This document shows positions 43,778-61,064 of a stretch of 64,000 bases of DNA, piece after piece. The DNA is from Meandrina meandrites (lineage: Eukaryota; Cnidaria; Anthozoa; Scleractinia; Meandrinidae). The stretch is taken from the NCBI GenBank assembly GCA_963693305.1, contig OY855903.1, positions 32,207,598-32,271,597 on the forward strand, given 5' to 3'. The notes below the pieces were generated by a model that did no database searches, was not told where the DNA came from, and worked only from the letters and a program-made list of their open reading frames with translations. The position numbers and the translations under genes were made by a program. Within the stretch, counting starts at the first letter, position 1; each line of letters starts with the position of its first letter.

Positions 43778-43910
43778 GTAGCAACATTATGCCAGTACTA
43801 GCGCATTTCTTTGAATCACCCTAAATTATGTAAAAGAAAAATGAGTTAAACAAATTACTTCCATAAAATTAATATAATCAATGGAGAAACAGACCGTAAA
43901 ACAGCTGAAG
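43778..43910. repeat. Left inner part of the terminal inverted repeat
   Basis: AGTAGCAACATTATGCC (43778-43794) onward matches the complement of the sequence ending at 59057, with few differences, and runs through the polymerase ATG at 43881 into its first codons. The repeat therefore contains the promoter and N-terminus of the polymerase gene on one side and of the 60-residue minus-strand gene on the other. Confidence 0.85.
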
Positions 43911-45995: not shown

Positions 45996-47745
45996 AGAGT
46001 CTTTTAAAAATCTTACAGAATTTTATCAAGGTGATGAGTTAAACCTTCTTTTAAGAAAGGGTGTCTTTCCCTACGATTGGTTTGATAACTTTAAAAAACT
46101 CTCTACCGATCACCTTCCACCGAAAGAGTCATTCAACTCAATACTTAATGACAGCGACATCTCAGAAGAGGATTATCTGCACGCACAGAATGTCTGGAAA
46201 ATATTCGACATGAAGACTATGAGAGATTACCATGACCTCTATCTCAAGAGTGATGTTCTTCTTCTCTCTGACGTCTTTGAAAACTTCAGGGATGTCTGTC
46301 AAGATAATTACCGTCTCGACCCGATATTCTATTACACAGCGCCCGGACTTGCTTGGGATGCGTGTTTAAAGATCACCAAGGTCAGACTGGAGTTATTAAC
46401 AGACTATGAGATTTTAATGATGGTAGAGAAAGGAATCCGAGGGGGAGTCTCTATGATATCTACGAGATACGGAAAGGCAAACAATCCTTACATGAAAGAT
46501 TACGATCCTGACAAACCGACAAAGTACATCTCTTATCTCGACGCAAACAATCTCTACGGTTGGGCGATGAGTAAACCTCTGCCGACTGACTGTTTTAGAT
46601 TTATGAATAAAGAGGAGTTGAAGGATTGGAAGAATCAGCCCTGCATACTTGAGGTAGACTTGGAGTATCCTGAACATCTTCACGACCTGCATAACGACTA
46701 TCCGTTAGCACCGGAGAGAGTCACCGTGAATAAGGTGGAGAAACTGATCCCCAATCTTAACGACAAGAAAAAGTACGTTATTCATCACGAAACTCTTAAA
46801 CTCTATCTCTCTCTCGGTCTTAAACTCACCAAGATTCACAGAGGGATCACATTCACAGAGTGTGCATGGCTAAAGCCGTACATCGATCTTAACACCGATC
46901 TAAGGGCGAAGGCAAGCAACGATTTTGAGAAAGACTTTTTCAAGTTGATGAATAACTCCGTATTCGGAAAGACTATGGAGAACATCAGAAACAGAGTCGA
47001 CATAAGATTGGTCACTCGGGAGAGTCAGGCGAAGAGGTTAACATGTAAACCTAACTATCAACATCACACAATCTTCTCCAAGAATCTTGCGGCCGTTCAT
47101 ATGAAGAAGGTAAAGTTATACTTTAATAAACCCGTCTACCTCGGCATGTCAATCCTCGATTTGAGTAAGACCTTGATGTACGATTTTCATTATAATTACA
47201 TCAAACCCAAGTACGATGACAGGGCTAAATTACTCTTTACAGACACGGATAGCCTCGCCTATGAGATACAGACGGAAGATTTTTACAGAGATATCTCCTC
47301 CGATGTTAAATCAAAGTTTGACACGAGTAATTACCCGAAGAATCACCCAAGCGGTATTCTCACAGGAGTTAACAAAAAGGTTATAGGCATGTTCAAAGAC
47401 GAGGCAGCAGGAAAGCAGATCGCTGAGTTTGTCGGTCTGAGAGCCAAACTCTACTCATACAGAGTAGAGGAGTCTTACGAGGAGAAGAAGTGTAAGGGAG
47501 TGAAGAAGGCGGTGATAAAGAAGACAATAAGTTTCAACGATTATAAGAACTGTCTGTTCAATAATAAACCCGCTATGAGAAAGATGAATGTTATCAGAAG
47601 TCATCTACACACCATGTACACCGAGACTGTCAACAAGATTGCTCTCTCTCCGTTCGATGATAAGAGATTAATACGTGAGGATAACATACACACCTTCGCT
47701 TACGGTTATAAAGGAGGCAACTCTGTTTCTTCTGGCACGACCTGA
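45955..47745 (+). pseudogene. PolB: Family B DNA polymerase, C-terminal part
   Basis: Continuation of the polymerase after the frameshift, carrying the rest of the exonuclease and the palm. The exonuclease III motif YLKSDVLLLSDVFE is at about residues 96-109. Polymerase motif A (YLDANNLYGWAM) is at about 193, motif B (KLMNNSVFGKT) at about 329, and motif C (FTDTDSLAYE), with both metal-binding Asp residues, at about 428. All catalytic residues I can check are kept, so the only visible lesion is the frame break. The ATG at 45955 is internal to the original protein and is unlikely to be a real start. The 3' end overlaps the convergent integrase by 40 bp (47706-47745). Confidence 0.93.
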
Positions 47746-48683
47746 AGCTCCTCTCTCACAAACGATCTCTTTGGTCCGTCGAGAAGATAATATAACACAG
47801 GCTGTTCTGCAGAGATCACCACACGAGTTATATTATAAATCTCAAGACTCCAGATTGGATCGGTTGCTCTTATCTCTCCTCCCTCATCCTCACCGGGAGA
47901 GAGAAGATACCTTACCTGAACACCGGGAGGCAATCTCTTCTCTTTTAATCCGACAGGTCTTCTGTAATTCACCTGTTTTATATCTACCTCTTTTAAACCG
48001 GGTTCTTTGCCTGTGATTCTTATTACCTCAGAATTTAACGCTTTCATAACGGCGGGCAACCTCTTCACCCAGACTCGTGATCTCTCATCACTAATCAGCT
48101 CCTGCGCGTACTGATGACTAAATAATCTCTCTCCCAAAGTTCTGTTAGCTCTCTCAACAAATGCCTGAGCTCGGTGATTACCCGCTTCGCTTCTCTGTAT
48201 CTTCACGTTATGTCTCTCCATCAACTTTGTCACATAACCCATAAACTCTTTACCGGGATTGACCATTATTCTCTTTGGCCAATTAAGAGAAGGTCTCTTA
48301 ATCTTTCTTTTATAAATACTCTCAAAGGCCTTTGCAACCTCTTGACTCTCTTTTGATGTTAACGCCTCAGCATCTTTATATCTCGAGGCAACGTCGATCA
48401 CCACCAAAGCGTAACGATAGGTCTTTCTTCCCACCCTATCGTGAGGAAGAAACAGAAGATCAGCCTGGTGAATCTCATTAACCCTACTCACACTCCAATG
48501 AGGCCTCGGTACATACTTCGGTGGAGGAAGATAGATCTGCCAAATTGCCTGTCTCTCTAACCAATCTCTCACCTCAACCTCACTGACCTTTGCCGCACTC
48601 GCCAACTTTGATACCGCAGAGTACCCTTTCCAATAACCCTCAGGGCTATAGTAAATCTTTTTTAAAATTCTCTCGTTACTCAT
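47706..48683 (-). CDS. INT: Retroviral-type (rve) integrase, second catalytic Asp changed
   Basis: 325 residues, full length for a Polinton integrase, which inserts the element DNA into the host chromosome. An N-terminal helical region is followed by the RNase-H-like core: first Asp in HQADLLFLP (D75), then VNPGKEFMGY, where family members normally have Asp at the position of N142, and Glu in NHRAQAFVERANRT (E177). The C-terminus (IWSLEIYNITRVV to YYLLDGPKRSFVREELQVVP) is the chromodomain/SH3-like tail of this family. The frame is uninterrupted, but the Asp to Asn change in the DDE triad should abolish catalysis. The ATG lies 26 bp from the divergent capsid ATG. It ends inside the polymerase 3' end. 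Confidence 0.93.
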   Translation of the reverse strand: MSNERILKKIYYSPEGYWKGYSAVSKLASAAKVSEVEVRDWLERQAIWQIYLPPPKYVPRPHWSVSRVNEIHQADLLFLPHDRVGRKTYRYALVVIDVASRYKDAEALTSKESQEVAKAFESIYKRKIKRPSLNWPKRIMVNPGKEFMGYVTKLMERHNVKIQRSEAGNHRAQAFVERANRTLGERLFSHQYAQELISDERSRVWVKRLPAVMKALNSEVIRITGKEPGLKEVDIKQVNYRRPVGLKEKRLPPGVQVRYLLSPGEDEGGEIRATDPIWSLEIYNITRVVISAEQPVLYYLLDGPKRSFVREELQVVPEETELPPL

Positions 48684-48712
48684 TTAAAAATAACCTCTCT
48701 TCTTTTAAAATG
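48681..48712. promoter_or_regulatory. Bidirectional integrase/capsid promoter region
   Basis: Only 26 bp separate the integrase ATG (48683-48681, minus) and the capsid ATG (48710, plus). TTTAAAA at 48683-48689 lies 20 bases before the capsid ATG and touches the integrase start. The self-complementary TTTTAAAA at 48703-48710 lies 19 bases before the integrase ATG and touches the capsid start. Both fit the box and spacing seen before most other genes of the element. Confidence 0.55.
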
Positions 48713-49919
48713 TCGCAGGCTATATCAGAGATTATCAATCCTAACCGAGTATCGAGAGAACCGTTCGGCTTAAAGGCGGAGTCATCTCTGAACAGGATCA
48801 CATTTAATCCCTCATCAGCAAATCCCGGAGAGACCATCACTATAAACATTCCCAAACTTTCAGACAATGTGGTCATCGTAAGTCGGTGGTCATGCAAACA
48901 ACACCCTCGTGAATAACGTCGGTCGAAACCTCGTCTGTCAACTCAAGGTCTCTTTCGGTAGTGAGACACTTCAGACCACAGAGAGATATGATCTCTTTCA
49001 GACCTATCATGACCTCTTTATCGATGATCGAGAGGACAGATTAAAACAGGGAATCTCTTCAGAGAATATGAGAAAACTTCGAACGAACGCGGGTGATAAG
49101 AGCACAACTGACGCAAAAGAAGTCACCCTCGCCGCGATTCACAACGAAAAGTACGCAATCCCTCTCGACCATACCGTTCTCAGTGATCACGGAGCTTTTT
49201 ATCCGAAGGCTCTTCCTCATCCTCTGTTGTTTGAGATCACTCTTCCGAAGGTTGATCAGATCGTAAATCATGATAAAGAGGAGGAGAAAAAGACACCCCC
49301 TACCTATAAATTGACAAACATTGAGTTGGAGTATCGCTGCATTAATAGTGAAGACCTGTCTCGTGAGGCCGCCTCTTCCTATCAGATCGGTAAAGGATTT
49401 TTCTACGAAAACGTAATCCATCACAAAAGTTTTCCCATCTCAAAACCGAACGACAGCATAATTAACGAGCACGTCAATATTCCGAGAAGGTCGATGACAG
49501 GAATTCTCTGTCTGTTTGAAGAGGATTATGACACAGGTAAACGAGACTCGGAGAAGTTTGTCAACCCTGACATTAAATCAATCAACATCAACATAGACGG
49601 CATGCCCAACCAACTCTTCTCAAAGGGAATGGTACCGACCGACTTTTGGGAGGCTATCAAGAGACGAATGGGTTCAAAGGGCACATTGAAGGAGGAAGAT
49701 TTTTATATAGACAAGTTCGGTCTTTGGATAGATTTGAGAACCTTTCCTGATAACGGTATTCACGGAGGAGGCCTTCACGTAAACAACACGTGAGACGGTG
49801 TCAAGTTAGAGATCAAACGAAAGACAGGAGGAACGGGAAACATCACCTGCCACATGTTTGTGGTCGCTGACGCGTTGATGGAGATTATGAACACAGAGTT
49901 AAAATCGATCATGTACTGA
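48710..49919 (+). pseudogene. MCP: Major capsid protein (double jelly-roll type), broken
   Basis: Would form the trimeric capsomers of an icosahedral particle. The N-terminal piece (48710 to about 48880) includes RITFNPSSANPGETITINI. A deletion or frameshift near 48870-48885 moves the reading frame, after which HANNTLVNNVGRNLVCQLKV, a strongly capsid-like block, runs on from about 48880. A premature TGA at 49791-49793 interrupts the same frame, which then continues with DGVKLEIKRKTGGTGNITCH to the natural stop at 49917-49919. Assignment rests on this block pattern and on position between integrase and ATPase, as in Polintons. Two separate lesions make it a pseudogene. The original start at 48710 is preceded by the promoter box. 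Confidence 0.82.
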
Positions 49920-49932
49920 ACGAAGTTCAGTA
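49914..49932 (+). terminator. Hairpin over the capsid stop codon
   Basis: TACTGAAC (49914-49921), loop GAA, GTTCAGTA (49925-49932): a perfect 8-bp stem that includes the TGA. Candidate 3'-end processing signal by analogy with hairpin-dependent mRNA ends of some large DNA viruses (inference). Confidence 0.45.
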
Positions 49933-49952
49933 CCATAAACTTTGTTTATTGT

Positions 49953-49960
49953 ATTAAAAA
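49953..49960 (+). promoter_or_regulatory. TTTAAAG-like box of the ATPase gene
   Basis: ATTAAAAA ending about 20 bases before the ATPase ATG at 49981, matching the position of the box in the other genes, though a weaker sequence match. Confidence 0.35.
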
Positions 49961-49980
49961 TCCCCTCGCTTAATAAATAA

Positions 49981-50601
49981 ATGAATGAGTTACGAGATAA
50001 GATTCCCTTTCACATGATCATAACCGGACCGACAAACTGCGGAAAGACAGAGTACCTGATTGAGCAGCTCCGAGGACCCTTCCGAAAGGTATTTGAGTAC
50101 ATTGTTCTGATCTGTCCGACCTATGCGAAGAACAGGACCTACCGCGGATTCGCCCGAGGTGATAAACGCTTCTTTGTCCTCTCACCTGATTCAAGTAACA
50201 GTGAAGAGATTAACGACCTATTAAAAGACGTGTCAGATCTCTTCTCGGGAACAAACACCCTGATCATTCTCGATGACTGCGCAGTCTCAAAAGAACTGAA
50301 GACTCGCTCTAATAAATTTATCGACCTTGCTTTCTCCGGGAGACATGACGGATTGAGTGTATGGGTGTTGACGCAGCAGTTGACCTCGATAGCGAAACCC
50401 TTCCGAGAGAACGTCGCTTGCGTGGTCGCTTTTCACAATCCCTCTCAGGTCGGCATGAAGACCCTGTTCGATGATTACGGAGGAGATCTTGACACAGAGA
50501 CAAAGAGAATATTCAACAGAATGTTAAAGGAGGAGAGATACGCACGACTCTGCCTCTGCCTCAGATATCCTTTTGAGTGTTATCTTGAGATACCTTCATA
50601 G
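49981..50601 (+). CDS. ATPase: FtsK/HerA-type genome packaging ATPase
   Basis: 206 residues, about the usual size for Polinton and adintovirus packaging ATPases, which pump DNA into preformed capsids. Walker A is GPTNCGKT (residues 16-23), Walker B is LIILDD (94-99), followed by GRHDGLSVWVLTQQ (about 120-133) with the sensor-like Gln of the A32 group. The frame is intact with no lesion, unlike the polymerase and capsid genes on either side. It follows the capsid gene by about 60 bp, and a hairpin plus an A/T box lie in this gap. The ATG at 49981 is the first one and has box spacing of about 20 bases. Assignment is firm; the precise family name is by motif only. Confidence 0.92.
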   Translation: MNELRDKIPFHMIITGPTNCGKTEYLIEQLRGPFRKVFEYIVLICPTYAKNRTYRGFARGDKRFFVLSPDSSNSEEINDLLKDVSDLFSGTNTLIILDDCAVSKELKTRSNKFIDLAFSGRHDGLSVWVLTQQLTSIAKPFRENVACVVAFHNPSQVGMKTLFDDYGGDLDTETKRIFNRMLKEERYARLCLCLRYPFECYLEIPS

Positions 50602-50665
50602 AGTTTGTAAAAACCTTTTTAAAGAAGTGTGAAAACTAACGTTAACAGCCTTGTGAGATTAACAA

Positions 50666-50672
50666 TTTAAAG
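50666..50672 (+). promoter_or_regulatory. TTTAAAG box before the gene at 50697
   Basis: TTTAAAGGTTTCACCAAT starts at 50666, 24 bases before the ATG. The GGTTTCACCAAT extension recurs in the tandem repeats before the gene at 54193. Confidence 0.5.
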
Positions 50673-50696
50673 GTTTCACCAATCATATTAACAAAG

Positions 50697-51182
50697 ATGG
50701 CAAACATCGAAGATTATATTGAAGAAATACCGGAGGTTAAAGAGGAGATTAAGGTTACCGAGGAAGACGATCTCAAAGTGGAGAGAGAGTCACTCGCGAT
50801 ACTCGCATCCCTCGGATCGACAGAGGAGTTTCTCGATAAAGCGATGAGTCTGGGAGATATTAAGAGACTCTCTCCCAAGGGTGTGGAGAAGTACTTCAAT
50901 CGTTATAAGACCGTAATGGGTAAGAAAGTGACCGGTGGTCTGGTAGAGTCAGCAATCTCTGCCGCGAGTGTTCTTATCTCTTACGTTATTCCCGTAGATG
51001 ATGTGGAGGCTCTCAATGAAGACTTGAAGAATGATGATCTTGTTAAACGTGAACTGAGTAACTTCGCAGGCCTGTTGGTACTCAAGGGAGGAAGATTGGT
51101 AGCGTTAGCTAGCGGACTTTTCAAGGTCGCTAAGCACGTAAAGTTAAGACCCTCTGAGGAAAATTCTAAGGAGAATGAATAA
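50697..51182 (+). CDS. Polinton-associated hypothetical protein, 161 residues
   Basis: Not recognised. The N-terminal third is acidic (repeated Glu and Asp around EEIPEVKEEIKVTEEDDL). Two uncharged, mildly hydrophobic stretches follow: about residues 81-100 (VESAISAASVLISYVIPV) and about 122-146 (NFAGLLVLKGGRLVALASGLF). The tail is charged. This layout suits a membrane-associated or capsid-internal protein, but that is inference. The gene follows the ATPase by about 95 bp, has its own promoter-type box, and is uninterrupted. An intact frame next to broken genes argues that it is a real gene of the element. Confidence 0.75.
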   Translation: MANIEDYIEEIPEVKEEIKVTEEDDLKVERESLAILASLGSTEEFLDKAMSLGDIKRLSPKGVEKYFNRYKTVMGKKVTGGLVESAISAASVLISYVIPVDDVEALNEDLKNDDLVKRELSNFAGLLVLKGGRLVALASGLFKVAKHVKLRPSEENSKENE

Positions 51183-51328
51183 GACTATTAAGCGTGACTG
51201 ATTAAGAATGTTAATAGTGACTGAATAAGAATGTTAAGCTTGACTAAATCAACCGATTCACTTCGTTCATGGTGATTTAAACATTTCTTAAGAGTTAACT
51301 AAACACAACTCTGTGAGAGACAACGAAC
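51183..51328. other. Intergenic gap with short direct repeats
   Basis: Variants of GTGACTGATTAAGAATGTTA (about 51196) recur near 51220. TTTAAACATTTCTTAAG at 51276 resembles the promoter box but is 46 bases from the next ATG, farther than in any other gene. Confidence 0.4.
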
Positions 51329-51706
51329 ATGTTATATGAAGAGAAGTGCAGAAAGATATTTCAAGACCTATTTAAAACAGAATTTAAGAAGATAAGACCT
51401 GATTGGTTAAAGAATCCTTGGACTTACCAAAACCTCGAGTTGGACGGTTATAACCCTGACATAGTTACTCCTCACGGTAAAGGTTTAGCATTCGAGTATG
51501 ACGGTAAACAACATACAGAGTTCACTCCCCTCTTTCACTCTTGTGTGGGTGATTTCGAGTATCAAGTGATGAAAGACTCTTTGAAGGATGAAATCTGCAG
51601 AGATGAAGGGGTTCTCCTTATAAGAATCCCTCACTACATTCTTTATTGGGATCTCAAGCCTTTTATTGTTGGGAGATTGTTAATAGAGGGTGTTAAGCTT
51701 AATTAA
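51329..51706 (+). CDS. PD-(D/E)XK-like nuclease
   Basis: 125 residues. The pattern is that of small restriction-like endonucleases: a helix, then GYNPDIVTPHG with a candidate catalytic Asp (about residue 48), then LAFEYDGKQH with the E-x-D-G-K-Q-H arrangement (about 58-67), and later LLIRIPHYILY, a typical closing strand (about 98-108). It may be a repair, resolution or homing-type nuclease; the substrate is unknown. It is uninterrupted. The start ATG at 51329 has only a distant promoter-like box. The family call is by motif pattern and is an inference. Confidence 0.65.
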   Translation: MLYEEKCRKIFQDLFKTEFKKIRPDWLKNPWTYQNLELDGYNPDIVTPHGKGLAFEYDGKQHTEFTPLFHSCVGDFEYQVMKDSLKDEICRDEGVLLIRIPHYILYWDLKPFIVGRLLIEGVKLN

Positions 51707-51735
51707 AACCGGTTCACAAGGGTGTAGAAAAATGA

Positions 51736-51742
51736 TTTAAAG
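51736..51742 (+). promoter_or_regulatory. TTTAAAG box before the gene at 51763
   Basis: TTTAAAGACTTCTT starting at 51736, 20 bases before the ATG. This is one of the best examples of the motif. Confidence 0.55.
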
Positions 51743-51762
51743 ACTTCTTATGATTTATTAAA

Positions 51763-52035
51763 ATGGTGCGTTACGTTGATCACAGAGTGAACATCTCTGA
51801 AGAACAGAAAGAAAAGTTCTGTTCAGCAATCGATAACAATGAAGCCGTCACCATAAGATTTAAACACGAGGATCTTTCTGGGAGTGATGATCTCATCTCT
51901 TTCACTCTCCAACAGTTTAAAAAAATAGCCAACGCTTTCGGTAAAGGAAGGGGAGTTACCATAAATATGAGTAAGGATCAGGTAAATCAACACGAAATCG
52001 TTGATGAGGATGATTTTTTCTTTTCACCGTTGTAA
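51763..52035 (+). CDS. Small conserved Polinton-type protein, 90 residues
   Basis: Soluble, mixed-charge protein. The order ISEEQKEKFCSAIDNNEAV, TIRFKHEDLSGSDDLISFT, then KKIANAFGKGRGVTINMSKD resembles, by recollection only, the N-terminal module of proteins encoded by many Polinton-type elements in aquatic animals, where a Gly-rich hydrophobic tail usually follows. Here the protein ends shortly after DDFFFSPL, so the tail is absent or this is a short variant. Function unknown; a DNA-binding or core-associated minor structural role is only a guess. It has a strong promoter box upstream and an intact frame. Confidence 0.75.
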   Translation: MVRYVDHRVNISEEQKEKFCSAIDNNEAVTIRFKHEDLSGSDDLISFTLQQFKKIANAFGKGRGVTINMSKDQVNQHEIVDEDDFFFSPL

Positions 52036-52086
52036 ACTCTCGTTAACAGCCATGTGTAAACTATTAAGATTAACTATCTAAACCTG

Positions 52087-52093
52087 TTTAAAG
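52087..52093 (+). promoter_or_regulatory. TTTAAAG box before the gene at 52117
   Basis: TTTAAAGACATCTT starting at 52087, 23 bases before the ATG, nearly identical to the box at 51736. Confidence 0.55.
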
Positions 52094-52116
52094 ACATCTT
52101 CTGACATTACTAAAAC

Positions 52117-52536
52117 ATGTCAGAAGAAGTTGAACAGATCACAAAGACCCCCATAACAGAGAGTGTCAAAAAAGAGAAAGATCCCAAGAAGGTTGCCGCA
52201 GGAAAGAAACTTGCCGAGTATAACAGAAGGGCAAAGGAGGCGTTGAAGGAGAAGATGAAACGTGAGGCAGAGAAGGCTCAGGAGGAAGAGGAGAGAGAGA
52301 CGGGTGAATCTGCTATCGCAGAGCAAGGCTCTCCAATGGGGGGGTGGATTCCTGAGATCTCATTTACGACCGCGATCTCCCTTGTCGGTATCGGTTTGAC
52401 CGCACTGAATATGTTTATGAGTAATAAAAAAGATACTCCGAGTGATCCTCCCCCGAGATTACCTGAACCTACCCTGAGTGAACCGTTAAAACCTCAACCA
52501 TCGAAGATTCCTTTACCCAAGATGGGGATGCACTGA
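52117..52536 (+). CDS. Single-span membrane protein with charged helix, 139 residues
   Basis: Not recognised. Residues 1-65 are strongly charged and probably a long helix (Lys, Glu and Arg rich, around EALKEKMKREAEKAQEEEER). A hydrophobic segment at about 81-102 (ISFTTAISLVGIGLTALNMF) would span a membrane once. The tail is proline-rich (PPPRLPEPTLSEPLKPQP). The order of helix, membrane anchor and Pro-rich tail suits a virion membrane or capsid-bridging protein, which is inference. It is intact, with its own promoter-type box, and its stop codon lies in a small hairpin. Confidence 0.75.
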   Translation: MSEEVEQITKTPITESVKKEKDPKKVAAGKKLAEYNRRAKEALKEKMKREAEKAQEEEERETGESAIAEQGSPMGGWIPEISFTTAISLVGIGLTALNMFMSNKKDTPSDPPPRLPEPTLSEPLKPQPSKIPLPKMGMH

Positions 52537-52542
52537 AAGTGC
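52530..52542 (+). terminator. Small hairpin over the stop codon
   Basis: GCACT, loop GAA, AGTGC (52530-52542). The stem includes the start of the TGA. It has the same GAA loop as the hairpin over the capsid stop. A 5-bp stem is short, so chance is possible. Confidence 0.3.
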
Positions 52543-52566
52543 CCGGCACAGAGAGTACCGCATTTA

Positions 52567-52573
52567 TTTAAAG
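52567..52573 (+). promoter_or_regulatory. TTTAAAG box before the gene at 52593
   Basis: TTTAAAGATATGCT starting at 52567, 19 bases before the ATG. Confidence 0.5.
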
Positions 52574-52592
52574 ATATGCTATCACAGGATAA

Positions 52593-52781
52593 ATGTCGAA
52601 AGAGAAGATCTTCAAGATGATTTATGACGCCTCTGTTCTGATCGGAATCTCCTCAGGGTTCGGTTACTTTGTCAATCTGTACGATCCCTCAGATAGCGTG
52701 ATCGACTACCTTAAATGGGTAGGAATACTCTCCGGTAGCCTCTATTTAAAAGAGTATATGCAGAGAGAGGAGATACTTTAG
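52593..52781 (+). CDS. Small membrane protein, paralogue 1 (62 residues)
   Basis: Two weakly hydrophobic stretches (about 13-26 and about 37-51) separated by a DPSDSVIDY segment. It shares the order DAS-LIG-SGG-GY, DPS-S, YLKWVGILSGSLYLK with the gene at 53888, so the two arose by duplication inside the element. Function unknown, probably membrane-associated. It ends with TAG at 52779-52781, directly followed in the same frame by the open fibre-like frame. The start is supported by the promoter box at 52567. Confidence 0.75.
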   Translation: MSKEKIFKMIYDASVLIGISSGFGYFVNLYDPSDSVIDYLKWVGILSGSLYLKEYMQREEIL

Positions 52782-53582
52782 AGGATCGATTCCCTTAACT
52801 CGAAGAGTGATAACTCAAAGAAGACACCTAAGAATCTCGATCTCAAGTCAAAGAGGATCATAAACCTCGCCAATCCCGTCGGTGACAGAGACGCTGTTAA
52901 CAAAAGTTACGTCGATGAGAAGGTGAAAACTCTCATTAACAGCCATGTGAGTAATAAGAGAGATCTCGACATGGGAGGGAATGAGATACATAATGTAAAG
53001 ACCCCGGAACCCACAGATGTTCATCACGCAGCGAATGTCAATTATGTTAATAAGACCGTTGACAAAAGCGAGTCGATCACCTTGAGAAAGATGAGTGAGA
53101 TAAGAACATACGTCGATGAGTCCGTTCCCAGAAAAGTCTTTTATAAAGGTTATCTTCAACATAACAATGAAAACACCGTAAAATTCTTTGCAAACGAGAC
53201 GGAGTCACATACTCGTTACACCAGACAGAGTGATACCTCTGATTTTATCGTGAATGACAACGATGATGAGAAAATAATAATCAAGAATCCGGGAGTCTAC
53301 TCGATATCTCTGATCGATGGTTTGAAGACAAGCAGAGAGGAAGATAACGGAACTGTTCAGTTCATATTGAATCCCGCACCCTTTCTGAGTCTGAGTGATA
53401 ATATTAACATAACAGTACCCAACTCAAGCAGGGGTTTTAAAACATATAATTTCATCTCCGTTTTAGATATTTACAAAGACACGACATTAAAGATACAGAC
53501 CTCAGATGCCTCCACCATCTTTGACGGTTTGGGTAACGGGTATAAAAAGTTTGGGTTCATTATTTTGAATAAGATAGATTAA
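52782..53582 (+). CDS. Fibre-like protein (phage tail-fibre-type repeats), start unclear
   Basis: Open frame of about 266 codons without an early ATG. It begins with LDLKSKRIINLANPVGDRDA and NKSYVDEKV, then MGGNEIHNVKTPEPTDVHHA and NYVNKTV: two copies of the INLxxPxxxxDAxNxxYV pattern known from phage tail and adenovirus-like fibres. A beta-rich C-terminus follows (VYSISLIDGL, NITVPNSSRGFKTYNFISVL), suited to a trimeric knob. It would bind host cells or decorate vertices. The first ATG in frame (52971) would remove the first repeat, so the original start was lost or the frame was once joined to the upstream gene across the TAG at 52779. Role by pattern only. Confidence 0.65.
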   Translation, partial: RIDSLNSKSDNSKKTPKNLDLKSKRIINLANPVGDRDAVNKSYVDEKVKTLINSHVSNKRDLDMGGNEIHNVKTPEPTDVHHAANVNYVNKTVDKSESITLRKMSEIRTYVDESVPRKVFYKGYLQHNNENTVKFFANETESHTRYTRQSDTSDFIVNDNDDEKIIIKNPGVYSISLIDGLKTSREEDNGTVQFILNPAPFLSLSDNINITVPNSSRGFKTYNFISVLDIYKDTTLKIQTSDASTIFDGLGNGYKKFGFIILNKID

Positions 53583-53584
53583 AG
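53578..53584 (+). promoter_or_regulatory. TTAAAG box overlapping the fibre-like stop
   Basis: ATTAAAG at 53578-53584 overlaps the TAA of the fibre-like gene and lies 19 bases before the ATG at 53604. Confidence 0.45.
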
Positions 53585-53603
53585 ATTTACTCACCTTAGT
53601 AAA

Positions 53604-53834
53604 ATGTGGAGTAAGGTCATTCTCGCAGGAAGTCTGTTTGCAGCCGTTATATATCTGTTGTTACCGAAAGAACATTGCGTCTGCGGATTTAAGATACCTG
53701 AGGAAGGGGGAATGTGTGAATGCGGAGAGTATAACGGTCGGATTGTCATAAAGATTGATAAACTTAGAGAGAAGGAGTTAAAAAGAATCGAAGAGGAGAC
53801 GAGTAAAGGAAATTCTTACGACACGTTCCTGTAA
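53604..53834 (+). CDS. Small membrane-anchored Cys-rich protein, 76 residues
   Basis: An N-terminal hydrophobic segment (residues 3-20, KVILAGSLFAAVIYLLL) acts as signal anchor. A pair of CxC knuckles follows (C25/C27 and C38/C40), as in a small zinc ribbon, then a charged helical tail (KIDKLREKELKRIEEE). Not recognised. With one membrane span and a metal-binding-like knuckle it may be a virion or assembly protein (inference). It starts 21 bases after the fibre-like stop and is uninterrupted. Confidence 0.7.
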   Translation: MWSKVILAGSLFAAVIYLLLPKEHCVCGFKIPEEGGMCECGEYNGRIVIKIDKLREKELKRIEEETSKGNSYDTFL

Positions 53835-53861
53835 CTGCGACAGCATCTTTCTCTAAATCGA

Positions 53862-53868
53862 TTTAAAC
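53862..53868 (+). promoter_or_regulatory. TTTAAAC box before the gene at 53888
   Basis: TTTAAACATTATGCC at 53862, 19 bases before the ATG. Confidence 0.45.
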
Positions 53869-53887
53869 ATTATGCCTTGAAATTAAA

Positions 53888-54103
53888 ATGTCAGAGAATA
53901 AACTCGTAAAGACTGTCACCGATGCATCCATTCTGATTGGTCTCTCCGGGGGAGTTGGGTACATTGCGAAGAAGGCTATAAAAGAATCATTTATCAATGA
54001 CCCCTCATCCAGCATTATTAACTATGGTAAATGGGTCGCTGTCCTGTCAGGAAGTATGTACTTGAAAGATTATTTGGAGAAACAGAAGATTCTTCCCTCT
54101 TAA
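53888..54103 (+). CDS. Small membrane protein, paralogue 2 (71 residues)
   Basis: Same layout as the protein at 52593: TDASILIGLSGGVGYI, then SFINDPSSSIINYGKWVAVL and SGSMYLKDYLEKQKIL. Two hydrophobic stretches, with a short extra KKAIKES segment between them. Both copies are intact and both have their own promoter box, which suggests both are, or recently were, in use. Likely a paired membrane component; the exact function is unknown. Confidence 0.75.
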   Translation: MSENKLVKTVTDASILIGLSGGVGYIAKKAIKESFINDPSSSIINYGKWVAVLSGSMYLKDYLEKQKILPS

Positions 54104-54110
54104 TAAATAG

Positions 54111-54192
54111 ATAAAGGTTCCAACAATCATTCTTAATAAGATAAAGGTTTCACCAATAATATTCATATAAAGGTTTCACCAATAATATTCAT
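54111..54192 (+). promoter_or_regulatory. Triple promoter-like repeat before the gene at 54193
   Basis: Three tandem units begin ATAAAGGTT at 54111, 54141 and 54167. The last two are exact 26-bp copies (54141-54166 and 54167-54192). The last unit puts ATAAAGG 19 bases before the ATG, the same spacing as the single boxes elsewhere. The GGTTTCACCAAT core is shared with 50672-50683. Confidence 0.6.
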
Positions 54193-54603
54193 ATGGCGAC
54201 CATTGCGTTAATGATCGGAGGAGCAGTTTTGAACGCGACAGCGTTTGTCGGGGGATCTTATTTGGCAAAGTATCTGAGCGGATCGCAGACTGATACAAAA
54301 AGAATTCGACACGATAAGGCTTTAGAAAATTATGAAAGAGACTACGCAGCTTACCAAGAGAAGAGGCAGAGACTGTTGGATTGGTATAATCAGCAGAGAG
54401 ATGCTGAGCATCAGGCTTCACAGAATCTCTCGAACACTGACGAGGCTTTTAAACTTTATTCACAGACACATCCTGATTACTCTCTTCAGGAACCCAAACT
54501 CTCTGATTACTACAGACCGAGTGATGACCAGAGAATGGGTGAGATGGCCTACGTTGGGGGAGGGATGTTGGCGTTGGGTTATTTGACAAGTAAATTATTC
54601 TGA
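54193..54603 (+). CDS. Polinton-associated protein, 136 residues
   Basis: A hydrophobic N-terminus (residues 1-26, MATIALMIGGAVLNATAFVG) and a hydrophobic C-terminus (about 118-136) bracket a charged, Tyr/Gln-rich helical middle (ENYERDYAAYQEKRQRLLDW). PKLSDYYRPSDDQ stands before the tail. By recollection it matches a family annotated only as uncharacterised in many cnidarian genomes, always with Polinton-type genes nearby; this is unverified here. Probably a particle or assembly protein. It is intact and is preceded by the most elaborate promoter-like region in the element. Confidence 0.8.
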   Translation: MATIALMIGGAVLNATAFVGGSYLAKYLSGSQTDTKRIRHDKALENYERDYAAYQEKRQRLLDWYNQQRDAEHQASQNLSNTDEAFKLYSQTHPDYSLQEPKLSDYYRPSDDQRMGEMAYVGGGMLALGYLTSKLF

Positions 54604-54699
54604 AGTAAATAATTAAAAAGATTATCAAGTGTAAGAATTCTGAAGTATTGATATCAGGTAAATAATTTAAAAGATTCTTTACTTATCAAGTAAAGAATC
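54604..54699 (+). promoter_or_regulatory. Promoter box and perfect hairpin before the gene at 54700
   Basis: TTTAAAAGATTCTTT at 54666 lies 26 bases before the ATG. GATTCTTTACTT (54673-54684), loop ATC, AAGTAAAGAATC (54688-54699) form a perfect 12-bp stem that ends directly at the ATG. An earlier, diverged copy of the same segment (CTGAAGTA to GATTATCAAGT) lies at 54602-54630. Confidence 0.6.
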
Positions 54700-55632
54700 A
54701 TGGATGTTGACCCGACAGAGATACCTGACAGAGAGAATCCTTTTGACCCGGTTGATCCCGGTGATGACGATGAGGGAGAATCGATACCGATGACATCCAC
54801 ATCGAGAAGAGGTTACGACAATCCCAATTATCAAGAGGAGACCTCTTTTATTGATGAGAACACACCACTTATAGGAAGAGAAGAGAGAAGAGATGACGCT
54901 TGGGAAAGAATCCGAGAGAAGTATCCGAAAGTTAATCCTGCCAACTCATCTTTCACATCTGACATTGACGAGTATGATCGAGTGGTCGTGAGAATGAACA
55001 GAAAGGGAGGTAAGAGTTACCCTCTTTTTAAACCGGATGGTGAACTGAATGAAAAATTACCGAAGACCATAAAAGAGAGTCTCGGACCCTCTGCGGAGAA
55101 AGTTATCGAGACCAACGAGAATGAGATAACGAGGCGAAGAGAGAAAGTCAAAGAGCTTGAGTCCTCACGTAAAGATGCAAGAGAAGACCAGAGAGAGAAC
55201 ATCGATCGTGACATTGAACAGCAGAGAGAAGAGATAGAGAATCTCGAGAGGGAGAACGAAGTGATAGAGGAACGCATGTCACTCAGAGATAGAGTGAAGG
55301 CCATCTTTAAAAAGTACGGTTTCACAGCGTTCGCTGTTCTCTCTGCCGTCGGCGCTGTCATCGGTGTGATCGTATCTAATCTGAAGAGCGGTCTATCGAG
55401 ATTGGGTAAGGGTGTCGGTAACGGTCTGAAAGCTATCGGAAAGAAATTGGGAGAGATACTTCCCGGAATGGTGGGTGCGATCGCAAGTTTTATCTTTAAA
55501 ACGGCAGGTGAGGTCATCGGTTTTCTCACAAAGAATGCGTGGTTGTTGATCGTCGCCGTCGTTGTCTACTTTGTTGAACACATCGCTGTGAGAGACAGCG
55601 AACAGGTTAAAAATAAGCAGAAGAGAAAGTAA
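54700..55632 (+). CDS. Coiled-coil membrane protein, 310 residues, Polinton-associated
   Basis: Order: an acidic, proline-rich start (residues 1-30); ETSFIDENTPLIGREE (about 47-62); a globular segment (REKYPKVNPANSSF, then VVRMNRKGGKSYPLF) related in style to the start of the gene at 56335; a long charged coiled coil (about 145-200); a hydrophobic span (about 213-230, AFAVLSAVGAVIGVIVSNL); a Gly/Lys amphipathic region (LGKGVGNGLKAIGKKLGE); and further hydrophobic spans (about 255-300). It resembles, from memory, a repeated uncharacterised cnidarian family. The amphipathic Gly-rich helices suggest membrane insertion or lysis, as in adenovirus-type entry proteins; this is inference. Its TAA is directly followed by the next ATG. 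Confidence 0.8.
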   Translation: MDVDPTEIPDRENPFDPVDPGDDDEGESIPMTSTSRRGYDNPNYQEETSFIDENTPLIGREERRDDAWERIREKYPKVNPANSSFTSDIDEYDRVVVRMNRKGGKSYPLFKPDGELNEKLPKTIKESLGPSAEKVIETNENEITRRREKVKELESSRKDAREDQRENIDRDIEQQREEIENLERENEVIEERMSLRDRVKAIFKKYGFTAFAVLSAVGAVIGVIVSNLKSGLSRLGKGVGNGLKAIGKKLGEILPGMVGAIASFIFKTAGEVIGFLTKNAWLLIVAVVVYFVEHIAVRDSEQVKNKQKRK

Positions 55633-56238
55633 ATGGAGAGTTACAAAGAGATATACCCTCAGTTGCCAACCGAAGGCACCGGAGACGGCTTCAGATTGAA
55701 ACAGTGTGCAGATTGGTTATCCTGTCTCGAGAAGGATCTTCAGGATTGTGAAAAAATATACAAAAAGTATAAGCGTGCAAGGAGTGCTCTTCTCAATCTG
55801 TCTACAGGCAGCGGAACTCTTTCAGTCGCTCTCTGCGGAGGAGGATTGGGTACAGGACTTACCGGAGTCGGGCTTCCTGTATCGGTTGCATTGGGAGCTG
55901 TCGGTGGTTTTTGTGCCTTAACGAGCGTAGTTACCGCGAGTCTGGCAAAAGCTGTATCCGGGAAGGTGAGTAAGCATGAAAAGACTGTCTCTGTCTGTCA
56001 AGCGAAGATAAACACGGTAAAAGACGTCGTCTCAAAGGCGTTGACGGATAATAAAATAAGCCATGAAGAGTTTGTTCTGTTAAAATCTGAGTATGAGAAG
56101 TATTATGAGATGAAGAGATCGATAAGAGAAAAAAACATAAAGCAGCCAACACCTCCACCACCTCCGCAGGTGGATGTAAAAAAGATGGAGGAAGATATTG
56201 TTGCGAATATAATAAAAAAAATCACCCAGTCAGAGTGA
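55633..56238 (+). CDS. Membrane-inserting helical protein, 201 residues, Polinton-associated
   Basis: A charged N-terminal helix (about 20-50) precedes a long Gly/Ala/Leu-rich hydrophobic hairpin (about 58-105: LSVALCGGGLGTGLTGVGLP and VALGAVGGFCALTSVV). A charged coiled coil and a proline run (PTPPPPPQ) follow, then a final amphipathic helix. The ATG directly follows the stop of the preceding gene with no gap, so the two are co-arranged. GTTAAAA about 20 bases upstream, inside the previous coding end, fits the promoter box. By recollection the family occurs in other cnidarian Polintons without known function. The fold resembles a two-helix membrane hairpin. Confidence 0.8.
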   Translation: MESYKEIYPQLPTEGTGDGFRLKQCADWLSCLEKDLQDCEKIYKKYKRARSALLNLSTGSGTLSVALCGGGLGTGLTGVGLPVSVALGAVGGFCALTSVVTASLAKAVSGKVSKHEKTVSVCQAKINTVKDVVSKALTDNKISHEEFVLLKSEYEKYYEMKRSIREKNIKQPTPPPPPQVDVKKMEEDIVANIIKKITQSE

Positions 56239-56307
56239 GCTGTAACTGCCTGATAGTCTTGTCGAGAGATGAGTCATTTAGAGATCCTCCCTATAATCCC
56301 TACTTTG

Positions 56308-56314
56308 TTTAAAA
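56308..56314 (+). promoter_or_regulatory. TTTAAAA box deciding the start at 56335
   Basis: TTTAAAAACATATG at 56308 lies 20 bases before the ATG at 56335, which supports this start over any earlier non-ATG reading of the frame. Confidence 0.5.
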
Positions 56315-56334
56315 ACATATGATTGATAAATACA

Positions 56335-57939
56335 ATGAGTAAGCAAGATGATGATAAACCTAAATCTCTGTGGAACAGATTTCTCGATCGATATCCCCAT
56401 GCCGACCTGAACAAATTTAAACACGGCATCGACAGTTATGATAAAGAACCTTACGTCAGATTTGTCGGTAGAGACGGTTCAAAGTATGAAGTCTTTGATA
56501 AGAGTAAATTCATGTACAGTCTGTACTTTCCCGACGAGATGAAGAAAGCGTTGGGTCTTCCCTTAGATTTTCCGCGGGAGTTGACACTTAATTCGAAACC
56601 CTCATTACCGATTCCTGCTGTCGATTTCGGTGAGAGCAGACCCCTCAAATTGAGAGAGAAGTTAAAGAGACTTGATATATATCCAACGCCCACAGACTCT
56701 TTCTCTGTACCTGTCAGAGACATCTTCTCAAATACAACAATTAAACACACCTCTTCAAAAGAGTCTCATGAGTGGTTGAACGGACCGAATATGCGGTATT
56801 GGCCGCAGCAGCTTAACTTTGCCGTATGGTGTGCAACGACAGGTTGCGGGGTAAGCCTGCATCTCTTATTAGAGGAGAAGATGGGGGGAATCGATGTGAC
56901 AGACCATGAACTCAAACTTCCTCCACAGATACGAGCTATTCTCTGGTTTCACGTATACTTTACAATCAGACGAATCCTGTTTCAGATGGGGGGAATACAG
57001 AGTTCGATCGCTTTACCCGGTGACTCACCCTTTAATGAAAAGGATAACAGATACGACATTCCTTCTTATAAGAGAATCTGTAAAGAGTTCAATGTCCCGA
57101 CCGATTCTGACTTTCGCTGTCATAAAGGAGCAAATCACGGTTTGGGATCTGTGTACATTTGGGTCTCTTACGTAGCACCGTCAAAGACTGACTCTTCCTA
57201 CCCGGGATTTAATAAATTCAGTGATGAGGGAGGAGAGGGATCGAAAGGCAATCTTCTGCAGTACATTTTAAACTCTGAGACATCTGATGGTTATGAATAC
57301 TTTCTCACTCGTGTATCTAACGGATTGACAAATGCTGGTCAGGCGAGACTTAATCAATCTATTGAAGCGCTTGTCTACTGTGTATTGGGTGCGCAGGTAA
57401 AGGTTCGAAGCAGCATTCTCGGAAACACAGGAAGTGCGCAGGAGGTTCGACAAGAGTTTCTCGTGTTATTAGAGGATGCGATCAAACAGCCGGACATAAG
57501 TAAGAGTGTACAGAGATTTCAACTCGCTGTACAGGAGGCTAAAGTGAAGCTTGATTTGGCCGTCTCTCCTGGTACGTGGTTAATGCCGTCGAGAATGGTG
57601 ATCAATACGGAGAGTACAATCGGTTATAACAATAGACTTAAACGTGTCGAACCGACCATGAAATTAGGTGTTAATACGGATGTTAATTCAAAGAGCGTGC
57701 CGGTCGGAATAAAACATAACCTCGGTAAGAGTAAGGTTTCGTTACCTCATACTTCGGTTGTGAAGAAGAAGGTTGCAGAGAATAAGAGTAAGGTCTTTCT
57801 ACCTCATGTTGTTGAGAAAGAAGATCCACCTAAACCTAATAAACCGCCGTCGGCTAAGCCTGACACAACGAAACATGAGATTAATCTTGCGGTTTTGACG
57901 ATTGTCGTAGGCGGATTGGCATGGTATATGTTTCGATGA
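56335..57939 (+). CDS. Large conserved Polinton-associated protein, 534 residues
   Basis: Not assigned to a function. An N-terminal globular segment (LWNRFLDRYPHADLNKFKHG, then VGRDGSKYEVFD) echoes the middle of the protein at 54700. The core holds PQQLNFAVWCATTGCGVSLH, IPSYKRICKEFNVPTDSDF, and LNQSIEALVYCVLGAQVKVR, blocks that I recall as strongly conserved in uncharacterised cnidarian proteins. A Lys/Pro-rich linker (about 440-515) leads to a single C-terminal span (INLAVLTIVVGGLAWYMF). Size, position and tail anchor would suit a vertex or minor capsid protein, but this is inference. It is uninterrupted over 1.6 kb, the longest intact gene of the element. Confidence 0.85.
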   Translation: MSKQDDDKPKSLWNRFLDRYPHADLNKFKHGIDSYDKEPYVRFVGRDGSKYEVFDKSKFMYSLYFPDEMKKALGLPLDFPRELTLNSKPSLPIPAVDFGESRPLKLREKLKRLDIYPTPTDSFSVPVRDIFSNTTIKHTSSKESHEWLNGPNMRYWPQQLNFAVWCATTGCGVSLHLLLEEKMGGIDVTDHELKLPPQIRAILWFHVYFTIRRILFQMGGIQSSIALPGDSPFNEKDNRYDIPSYKRICKEFNVPTDSDFRCHKGANHGLGSVYIWVSYVAPSKTDSSYPGFNKFSDEGGEGSKGNLLQYILNSETSDGYEYFLTRVSNGLTNAGQARLNQSIEALVYCVLGAQVKVRSSILGNTGSAQEVRQEFLVLLEDAIKQPDISKSVQRFQLAVQEAKVKLDLAVSPGTWLMPSRMVINTESTIGYNNRLKRVEPTMKLGVNTDVNSKSVPVGIKHNLGKSKVSLPHTSVVKKKVAENKSKVFLPHVVEKEDPPKPNKPPSAKPDTTKHEINLAVLTIVVGGLAWYMFR

Positions 57940-58040
57940 TATGCACACCAACTGCGACAGCAAATACTGTTCTTTCATTATGCTAATTCTTGCCTTTTCC
58001 GGTGACGTCAATCACCCCAACAAAAGAATCTATTGTTTTT

Positions 58041-58084
58041 AAATTCCTTTCATGCTACGATAAATTTAAGTACGAAAGGAATTT
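58041..58084. terminator. Hairpin 1 between convergent genes
   Basis: AAATTCCTTTC (58041-58051) pairs perfectly with GAAAGGAATTT (58074-58084) over 11 bp with a 22-base loop. It could serve as a 3'-end signal for either strand. Confidence 0.5.
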
Positions 58085-58103
58085 TTTTAGACAATATAAA
58101 AGC

Positions 58104-58130
58104 TTTCATAACGTGAACCGCGTTATGAAA
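58104..58130. terminator. Hairpin 2 between convergent genes
   Basis: TTTCATAACG (58104-58113) and CGTTATGAAA (58121-58130) form a perfect 10-bp stem with a 7-base loop, followed by AAATAAAC. Candidate 3'-end signal. Confidence 0.5.
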
Positions 58131-58144
58131 AAATAAACAGAGAG

Positions 58145-58717
58145 TTAATGCGTTGCGTTACACTCTTTACATTGTGACTTCTGTCTTCCGTGTGGACAGA
58201 TCTGCGACCCTCCACAATCTTTACAGAAAGCTCTCTGTCTCTCGTGAGGGCAGATACCTTTTCCTCCACAGTCTTTACAATCATATCTCTTTCAATTATG
58301 TTGACAGATTTCACTACCTTTACAGTCTTTGCAACTTGATTTACGTCGACCATGAGGGCAGATTCCTTTTCCTTTACACTCTTTACACTGCCGCTTCCGT
58401 TTACCGTGTTGACAGATGCCTTTTCCTCCGCAATCTTTACATGTGTACTTTACTCGATTATGCTCGCATATACCGCCGCCTTTACACTCTTTACACATGT
58501 ACTGTACTCGATCGTGAATGCATATACCGCAGTGTTTGCAACTTTTTTCACGTATTTTGTGAGAGCATTTTATATCATATGTTTCAGTACACTCAAACTC
58601 TTTGTCAATCGACTCCTCTATCAGCTTAATCAGCTCCGCTTTACGCATTCTGTAATACCCTTTGATGCCTCGCTCTTTTGCGAGAGTCTTCAACTCTTTG
58701 ACCGATTGTTTCTCCAT
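58145..58717 (-). pseudogene. SAP-module protein with Cys/His knuckle repeats, in-frame stop
   Basis: The first 35 residues (VKELKTLAKERGIKGYYRMR and following) repeat the polymerase N-terminus, a SAP-like nucleic-acid-binding module. The rest is a tandem series of about eight units of roughly 18 residues, each like CKECKGKGICPHGRRKSSC, with regularly spaced Cys and His suited to zinc binding. A TGA at 58292-58294 interrupts the frame after 141 residues, but the same frame continues with two or three more perfect units to the TAA at 58145-58147. The late position of the stop may leave a usable short protein. TTTAAAGAAAT at 58746-58740 (minus) is the matching promoter box, 22 bases before the ATG. 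Confidence 0.8.
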
Positions 58718-58739
58718 ACTTATTAGTCATAAATCATTT

Positions 58740-58746
58740 CTTTAAA
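58740..58746 (-). promoter_or_regulatory. TTTAAAG box of the Cys-repeat gene
   Basis: On the minus strand TTTAAAG lies 22 bases before the ATG at 58717, the same arrangement as on the plus strand. Confidence 0.5.
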
Positions 58747-58776
58747 CCTAAAATTCACTTTTAAAATATACATAAT

Positions 58777-58959
58777 TTATCGAGGATCTGTGTGAGGTTG
58801 ACTATAGTCGTGAATCTCTTTCATAATTACATTATAGTTATGTATTAAGATCTGCATATATTCATCAACTGTGATAATTCTGTTTGATGGGGATTGTTTA
58901 AACCCTCGTTTCTTTAATTCTTCATTAGCCTTCAACTCTTTGACCGATTGTTTCTCCAT
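58777..58959 (-). CDS. Short SAP-start protein, 60 residues
   Basis: Begins with MEKQSVKELK like the Cys-repeat gene and, with one difference, like the polymerase, then leaves that similarity and continues with a short unrelated helix (SNRIITVDEYMQILIHNYNV). The SAP module is cut short. Its start lies inside the right terminal repeat, mirroring the polymerase start in the left repeat. It may be a decayed gene whose first codons are kept because they belong to the repeat, or a genuine small protein. Function unknown. Confidence 0.5.
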   Translation of the reverse strand: MEKQSVKELKANEELKKRGFKQSPSNRIITVDEYMQILIHNYNVIMKEIHDYSQPHTDPR

Positions 58960-59057
58960 TGATTATATTTATGGAAGTATTTTGTTTAACTCATTTTTCT
59001 TTTACATAATTTAGGGTGATTCAAAGAAATGCGCTAGTACCGGCATAATGTTGCTAC
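58930..59057. repeat. Right inner part of the terminal inverted repeat
   Basis: Complement of 43778-43910. Matches include TTTGAATCACCCTAAATTAT near 43812 against its complement near 59015, with a few differences. It runs without a break into the outer arm. Confidence 0.85.
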
Positions 59058-60133: not shown

Positions 60134-60155
60134 TTTCTTGTGTCAAACTAGACCG

Positions 60156-60952: not shown

Positions 60953-61064
60953 ATAAACTGGTGTGATGAAAACTGTTTGTTTGCTTCTTTTTCACATGCT
61001 GATCGTAAAAGGCTGGCCACCACGCTGGTCATTAAGGTTAATTTTCTCGTGTCCGGCATGAAAG

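Follow-up and report, generated by a model that had tools for sequence, protein, structure and literature searches.

Results

A Maverick/Polinton-type element in Meandrina meandrites

We analysed a 64,000-nucleotide stretch of the Meandrina meandrites genome (assembly GCA_963693305.1, contig OY855903.1, positions 32,207,598 to 32,271,597 of the forward strand), hereafter the window, in which a Maverick/Polinton-type element of 15,282 bp, a feature without strand of its own, occupies positions 43777..59058 between inverted terminal repeats, with CATCA on either side. An original prediction, made from the sequence alone, had noted short boxes of the form TTTAAAG at a nearly constant distance before the start codons of this element and had taken them to be core promoters of a viral style. 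Our analysis of these boxes, in the window and in further copies of the element, suggests that at most genes they form one part of a short promoter whose other part would be a TAAA word at the start codon.

The flanking CATCA repeats lie at 43772-43776 and 59059-59063, and the inverted ends consist of 97-bp arms that are 96% complementary and terminate in AGTAGC...GCTACT; the combination of inverted terminal repeats and a target-site duplication expected of Polintoviricetes is present. The element also carries the retrovirus-type integrase typical of Mavericks and Polintons (Pfam rve, E 1e-5, 26.2 bits, under the curated cut-off of 32.6; PHROG transposase families, E 1.4e-7) and an FtsK/A32-type packaging ATPase (Pox_A32, E 1.6e-12). 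Domain matches further identify a Rho_N/SAP-domain protein, and a long open region contains polymerase-B-like motifs, picked out by eye in the translation.

A TTTAAA box at a fixed distance from the start codon

We considered 17 starts, comprising the ATG-starting open reading frames (ORFs) of the element that were judged to be genes, with the polymerase and a short right-end ORF included and three internal ORFs of broken genes (45955, 49068 and 52971) excluded. TTTAAA begins at -36..-24 before 10 of the 17, compared with a mean of 0.58 and a maximum of 4 in 2000 dinucleotide shuffles. It is also the best 6-mer in any 13-base slot (10 starts), where the best word in 200 shuffled sets reached 6 starts once and usually 3. 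The slightly wider pattern [TAG]TTAAA or TATAAA occurs at -31..-26 before 14 of 17 starts, against 15 of 467 other ATGs within the element and 40 of 1953 ATGs in flanking host DNA (Fisher 1.3e-16). When the window starts are aligned on their boxes, the seven-mer is followed by a purine in all 17.

These results bear out the observation behind the original prediction: the boxes are present at the places it named, their counts exceed those of shuffles and non-gene ATGs, and the check it had proposed, an alignment of upstream sequences with a motif search and shuffled controls, yielded no control that reached the observed counts. Its gap of 19-26 bases between box and ATG needs a small correction: at the genes it regarded as in register the range is 19-27, with gene 54700 at 27. 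The claim that the box is often extended to TTTAAAGACWTCTT was too strong, as the exact form precedes only 2 of 17 starts (51763 and 52117), and the ATPase gene, described as a weaker fit, has ATTAAAA in register at -28. The nuclease-like gene 51329 is indeed an outlier in the window copy, but not elsewhere (see below).

Nine window starts have the box at exactly -26 or -27. On the forward strand these are TTTAAAA at 48683..48689 (-27 of 48710), TTTAAAG at 51736..51742 (-27 of 51763) and 52567..52573 (-26 of 52593), ATTAAAG at 53578..53584 (-26 of 53604), which contains the stop codon of the preceding gene, TTTAAAC at 53862..53868 (-26 of 53888), TATAAAG at 54166..54172 (-27 of 54193), GTTAAAA at 55606..55612 (-27 of 55633) and TTTAAAA at 56308..56314 (-27 of 56335); the ninth is the reverse-strand TTTAAAA at 48703..48709 (-26 of the integrase start 48683). 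Slightly further from their ATGs are the forward-strand boxes of the ATPase (ATTAAAA, 49953..49959, start 49981), of 50697 (TTTAAAG, 50666..50672, -31) and of 52117 (TTTAAAG, 52087..52093, -30), together with two on the reverse strand, TTTAAAG at 58740..58746 (-29 of the SAP-domain gene 58717) and GTTAAAC at 58984..58990 (-31 of the short right-end ORF 58959). Three forward-strand boxes stand further out: TTTAAAA at 54666..54672 (-34 of 54700), GTTAAAC at 43845..43851, an outlier at -36 of the polymerase start 43881, which the original prediction had left out, and TTTAAAC at 51276..51282, the outlier at -53 of 51329.

The integrase and 48710 genes diverge from a shared 26-bp promoter region (48684..48709, no strand). 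Within it lie two palindromes, TTTAAA, and each is the box for one of the genes while adjoining the ATG of the other: the integrase box abuts the ATG of 48710, and the box of 48710 shares one base with the start codon of the integrase. The intervening spacer is 27 bp in 18 of 20 other copies and 26 bp in 2 of 20.

Box and distance recur in twenty further copies

The window's own genome, which was searched for copies, comprises 551,114,374 bp in 56 contigs. We chose 20 further ATPase places across the range of identities (90-99%) and across contigs, located 14 genes around them by tblastn, and assigned starts by a rule blind to the box, namely the most upstream in-frame ATG within 60 bases with no stop between. 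The search located 267 of 280 possible gene-copies, and a start could be assigned in 265. For the SAP gene and the short right-end ORF, the analysis covered the window copy only. NWTAAA (N any base, W either A or T) occurs at -36..-24 in 254 of the 265 gene-copies, spanning all 14 genes, whereas 60 shuffled sets gave a mean of 36.5 and a maximum of 50. The distribution of box positions peaks at -27 (90 places), and 201 of 265 gene-copies have the box at -29..-26, compared with a shuffled mean of 12 and maximum of 23. An alignment made without regard to the box ranks the box, or a stretch overlapping it, among the four most conserved stretches of 6 columns for 13 of the 14 genes, the exception being 54700.

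The polymerase and nuclease genes, outliers in the window, are regular in nearly all other copies examined. The nuclease gene has its box at -28 or -29 in 14 of 15 copies; the exception, L009, is a near-identical copy of the window's element 296 kb away that shares the outlier. A polymerase start was present in 5 of 6 stretches examined. L049, which is the same copy as L009, has the polymerase box at -31, and the four others have GTTAAAG, TTTAAAG, CTTAAAG and GTTAAAG at -29, -29, -30 and -28, including two copies whose polymerase N-termini are only 56% and 48% identical to the window's. Gene 54700 keeps its unusual distance of -33 or -34 in 19 of 19 copies. The ATPase is preceded by ATTAAAA, TATAAAA or GTTAAAA at -26..-31 in 19 of 20 copies, the GTTAAAA variant resembling the end of the previous gene, and gene 52117 has several unrelated-looking upstream sequences with box-to-ATG distances from 26 to 30. 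Some copies have an earlier ATG as the start of gene 51763, of 53604 or of the nuclease gene, and the box then lies about 26-29 bases before it. At some genes, then, the sequence of the box is replaced while its distance is preserved.

A second element, TAAA, at the start codon

The upstream regions contain two A/T-rich blocks separated by a less A/T-rich spacer. At the start codon stands a word that the original prediction had missed, TAAA, which would be the initiator and complete the promoter. It falls within -12..+1 at 12 of 17 window starts, while among the remaining ATGs 54 of 467 in the element and 208 of 1953 in host DNA have it there; an example directly abuts the ATG of 51763 (51757..51762, forward strand). 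A box at -34..-26 together with TAAA at -12..+1 distinguishes 12 of 17 starts from nearly all other ATGs (2 of 467 in the element and 7 of 1953 in host DNA; Fisher 1.8e-18). Across the 20 further copies, TAAA is present at -12..+1 in 235 of 265 gene-copies, and when counted per 13-base slot it reaches 86% at -30 and 89% at -12, compared with 6-31% at other sampled slots.

The two elements are coupled in position. Their positions correlate (r = 0.65), and the distance from box start to TAAA is 22-25 in 193 of the 226 gene-copies that have both. Gene 54700 is included among these; its TAAA at -9 follows the box start by 25 bases in the window and by 24-25 bases across the copies, as at many genes. 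For gene 52117 the distance is 23 or 24 in all 19 copies having both elements, despite the variety of its upstream sequences.

Upstream ATGs and the likely 5' end

A ribosome scanning from the 5' end is misled by an upstream ATG only if that ATG lies inside the mRNA, and the distribution of out-of-frame ATGs may accordingly be informative about where transcripts begin. In the 20 further copies these number 140 in 7950 positions at -80..-36 (0.018 per position) and 37 in 1590 positions at -20..-13, a similar rate of 0.023, but only 2 in 1590 at -11..-3. In the last two intervals, five control words with identical base content have means of 22.6 and 31.2. The depletion at -11..-3 is significant by Fisher's test (7e-11) and remains so once identical sequences are dropped (6e-6). 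This profile, in which upstream ATGs still occur freely at -20..-13 but are scarce at -11..-3, would place the mRNA 5' end at about -12 or closer. Most homologues among the best matches listed share the start codon (ATPase, 111 of 120; 54700, 111 of 120; 56335, 97 of 120). The divergent promoter is consistent with short leaders, since the 26-27 bases between its two ATGs leave no room for longer ones unless transcription begins inside the neighbouring gene.

Repeated promoter units, overlaps and hairpins

The box of 54193 lies in the last of three tandem upstream TAAAGGTT units, and four copies of this type of unit precede two different genes in the window (50659-50689 and 54103-54189). Related units precede both genes in other copies too. 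Since units of the TAAAGGTT type precede two different genes, promoter units seem to have been copied between genes.

The box of 55633 lies inside the coding end of gene 54700 (window 55597-55632). The residues encoded by this box and its neighbouring codons, Val-Lys-Asn-Lys, are each 97% identical in 120 homologues, compared with 79-86% for the last three residues; the residues directly before Val-Lys-Asn-Lys in the window copy differ from those of most homologues.

A 12-bp hairpin fills the space between the box and the ATG of gene 54700 (window 54673-54699). In a simple count at fixed length, 16 of 19 copies keep all 12 pairs, and the other three differ in length or pairing. Strong hairpins were otherwise found only at 49913-49933 and at the junction 58031-58130, where genes of both strands end and two strong hairpins give a fold z-score of -7.1; this junction is perhaps a two-way transcription end. 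We considered hairpins as a general signal of 3' ends and rejected the idea, as 11 of 14 gene-end stretches had z-scores above -1 relative to their own shuffles. Poly(A) and T5NT words did not consistently mark the ends of element genes.

The element family and the remaining gene content

An ATPase search of the genome gave 1292 candidate places, for example C1:31961578-31962195. The 150 that were scored, the window's own included, are all at least 90% identical over essentially the whole protein, and 148 of them, by our count, lack an internal stop. The element family is numerous, and these counts suggest recent or continuing spread. The window copy itself shows several signs of decay: the polymerase (43881-47745) is split over two overlapping frames, the 48710 gene (48710-49919) is interrupted, an in-frame stop parts the 52593 ORF (52593-53582) from a fibre-like ORF behind it, and the SAP/zinc-ribbon-like gene (58153-58717) ends early within its own 54-base repeats. 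Copies L053 and L054 combine the diverged polymerase N-termini mentioned above (56% and 48% identity) with ATPases that are 95% identical to the window's, and parts of the element therefore seem to have been exchanged between copies. Just to the right of the element, a stretch of about 400 bases is duplicated 1.77 kb apart (60154-62333), and short-unit repeats occupy 61074-61466.

The C-terminal part of the putative polymerase matched nothing in Pfam, PHROG or PDB, neither a double jelly-roll capsid protein nor an Ulp1 protease was found by Pfam among the element proteins, and a PDB sequence search gave no useful match for the three proteins queried. The AlphaFold model of a 534-residue protein had a pLDDT of 36, too poor for a structure search. 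No RNA polymerase domain was recognised in the 19 element proteins scanned, several of which had no match of any kind. With the queries used, relatives of the element were absent from IMG/VR, phage records and GTDB genomes, and an Rfam scan of the window gave no match at the gathering threshold.

Discussion

A probable promoter for each gene, in two parts at most

Our analysis indicates that each gene of this Maverick-type element probably has its own short core promoter, consisting at most genes of a TTTAAA(G/A) box and a TAAA initiator. The initiator would touch or nearly touch the start codon, usually 22-25 bases after the box start, and transcription would begin in or next to TAAA. About 0-12 bases of leader would then be templated, and slippage on the A run, of the kind known from poxviruses and yeast linear plasmids, might lengthen it. 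The box may be read by an initiation machinery of viral type rather than in the canonical geometry of a host RNA polymerase II (Pol II) TATA box. As no RNA polymerase gene was recognised in the element, this machinery would be supplied from outside it; two tentative candidates, to each of which we give somewhat less than even chances, are the RNA polymerase of a co-infecting large DNA virus, in the manner of virophages, and host Pol II brought to an unusual spacing. The broader claims of the original prediction are largely upheld by these results. A core promoter for each gene is supported by the recurrence of box and spacing across copies, and a very short leader is favoured by the avoidance of ATGs close to the start. 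A code of viral style, not typical of host genes, agrees both with the layouts known from poxviruses, yeast plasmids and virophages and with the differing host promoters described below.

Several observations weigh against this model. Some starts have no TAAA within -12..+1: those of the polymerase gene in 4 of 5 copies, L049 being the exception, that of the SAP gene in the window copy, and those of 50697 and 54193 in 13 and 10 of 20 copies, respectively. At gene 56335 the distance from box to TAAA is 19, not 22-25, in 14 of 15 copies, and across gene medians this distance is not significantly tighter than that from box to ATG (Levene p = 0.90). TAAA before the ATG could in part be start-codon context. 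Eleven of 265 gene-copies have no box under the box-blind start rule, although in at least three of them (L011, L024 and L015) the rule shifted the start and the aligned start does carry a box. Finally, the 20 copies are related, so that counting them exaggerates the number of independent events; independent support comes from the number of genes, the cases of turnover and the host control.

Alternative explanations

One may postulate that host Pol II is steered to an unusually short distance between box and start by an element-encoded or TBP-related factor, and we regard this as a serious possibility, if one falling a little short of an even chance. Some viruses do replace TBP to read non-TATA boxes, as the late factors of beta- and gammaherpesviruses illustrate, and host Pol II would account for genes that share a box though no RNA polymerase gene was recognised among the proteins scanned. 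No candidate for such a factor was identified, however, and if the start lies in TAAA, the spacing would be about 6 bp under the canonical one.

Ordinary Pol II TATA promoters with short leaders, in which TTTAAA would be a TATA variant bound by TBP, appear unlikely. In their favour, the element has an integrase of retroviral type and resides in nuclear DNA, where Pol II is the default; moreover, as in a canonical TATA promoter, an A/T-rich word of 7-8 bases stands upstream of each gene, and TTTAAARA resembles the TATA consensus TATAWAWR in its last positions. The word nevertheless differs: the second base is T in 235 of 254 boxes, in a search that allowed T or A, and TTTAAA accounts for 155 of them but the canonical TATAAA for only 6. 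The geometry is a second difficulty. A TATA box normally starts about 30 bases (up to 31) before the start site. PMC7163114 places the Pol II TATA about 24 bp upstream of the start and describes the Pol II complex as incompatible with a box that is 4-6 bp from the start. With distances of 24-31, most element boxes would initiate at or inside the gene; those at -26..-28 would do so at or just after the ATG, yet the N-termini are conserved. The spacing of 26-29 bases from box start to ATG in most gene-copies thus speaks against a canonical TATA box, as the element's box would be at the wrong distance and is tied to the ATG.

The host control points in the same direction, although it represents one class of host genes. 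Among 14 histone H3 genes of the same genome, taken from 124 histone-family matches, 12 have TATAAAT at -58 to -84 and the other two have TATATAT at -93 and TATAAAG at -115; the TATA words of these genes thus all lie at -58 or further. NWTAAA at -36..-24 occurs in only 1 of the 14 (ATTAAA at -24), and TAAA at -12..+1 in none.

Alternatively, the box itself could be the initiator, with leaders of about 20-25 bases, in the way that TAAG serves as the initiator of baculovirus late genes. A single short word that keeps its distance from the ATG is what this would predict; the reading is nonetheless improbable, because out-of-frame ATGs are about as frequent at -20..-13 as further upstream and vanish only at -11..-3, so that the mRNA seemingly begins after -13, and because the second TAAA would go unexplained.

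It is more improbable still that a spliced leader is joined at the box, which would then be a 3' splice acceptor and for that reason stand at a constant distance from the ATG. AG does close many boxes (TTTAAAG), and short encoded leaders would do no harm if a short leader were added by trans-splicing. The seventh base is G in only 129 of 254 boxes, however, with TTTAAAA (71) and GTTAAAA (26) common; the invariant part is TAAA, not AG, and neither the TAAA at the ATG nor its positional tie to the box would be explained. An artefact of composition, or mere shared descent of the copies, has next to no probability: the spacers are indeed AT-rich and the copies related, but neither shuffles of window and copies nor non-gene ATGs ever reached the observed counts, the 17 starts belong to mostly unrelated genes of one element, and the box sequence has been replaced at similar distance.

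Possible consequences

If each gene does carry a box and a TAAA initiator, this amounts to a promoter rule, at the level of sequence, for the whole Maverick family, one that also fits the alternative start codons seen at three genes in other copies, and it makes the question of who transcribes Mavericks outside protists directly testable. Should host Pol II be responsible, a start-site geometry unlike that of textbooks would need explaining; should the polymerase be that of another virus, the virophage lifestyle would reach beyond protists. In a more speculative version, which we consider doubtful, these Mavericks would be virophage-like in being silent under host Pol II and switched on when the polymerase of a co-infecting nucleocytoplasmic large DNA virus reads TTTAAA(G/A)...TAAA-ATG. 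The genome would then contain a permanent reserve of satellites, perhaps as a defence, directed at an unknown giant virus, and from the TAAA initiators one would expect slippage to produce short 5' poly(A) leaders.

Comparison with known systems

Among open-licence literature, judged by titles and abstracts, we recognised no promoter boxes described for Mavericks outside protists, and the comparison is with other known systems. According to the portions of PMC5294985 that concern poxviruses, their intermediate promoters consist of a core and an initiator with TAAA in both, and their late promoters have TAAAT(G/A) at the initiation site. The element resembles these in pairing an A/T-rich core with a TAAA initiator near the start codon, though not at all genes, and late TAAAT(G/A) likewise stands at the start codon; it differs in its core word, in using one box for the integrase, the ATPase and other genes alike, and in that no gene for an RNA polymerase or transcription factor was recognised in the 19 proteins scanned, although supply in trans is possible. 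For African swine fever virus, the same source describes conserved blocks at -25..-15 and -9..+9 of the ATG for two intermediate genes, and a passage of PMC7163114 gives 5' leaders with medians of 14 and 9 nt; conserved blocks close to the ATG are common to both, as short leaders would be, whereas that virus has its own RNA polymerase and other words.

The cytoplasmic linear plasmids of yeasts offer another parallel and are said, in a statement from PMC11071308, to derive from (proto)polintons. As set out in sections of PMC6211774, an upstream conserved sequence (UCS), ATNTGA, usually lies 20-40 nt before each ORF with the start site close behind, TAAAN initiators occur at 12 genes, and polymerase slippage adds a 5' poly(A) leader. 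One box ahead of every ORF and a TAAA-type initiator are shared with the element; the word ATNTGA does not occur in the aligned element boxes, and the plasmids encode their own RNA polymerase and capping enzyme. Because poxviruses and yeast plasmids encode the polymerase, the element is not a member of either system.

Virophages offer a further parallel. Mavirus and its endogenous type 4 relatives have TCTA boxes in common with the giant virus CroV, found by a motif search in the 100 nt upstream of ORFs, as reported in extracts of PMC8547959. Here too a shared box precedes the genes of an integrating Maverick-related element, but the box is TTTAAA(G/A), not TCTA, no giant virus is known here to share it, and the host is not Cafeteria but has a 551-Mb genome that contains clusters of histone genes. 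By analogy, the promoter of the element appears to be of the same kind as the poxvirus, yeast-plasmid and virophage layouts, written in a different word.

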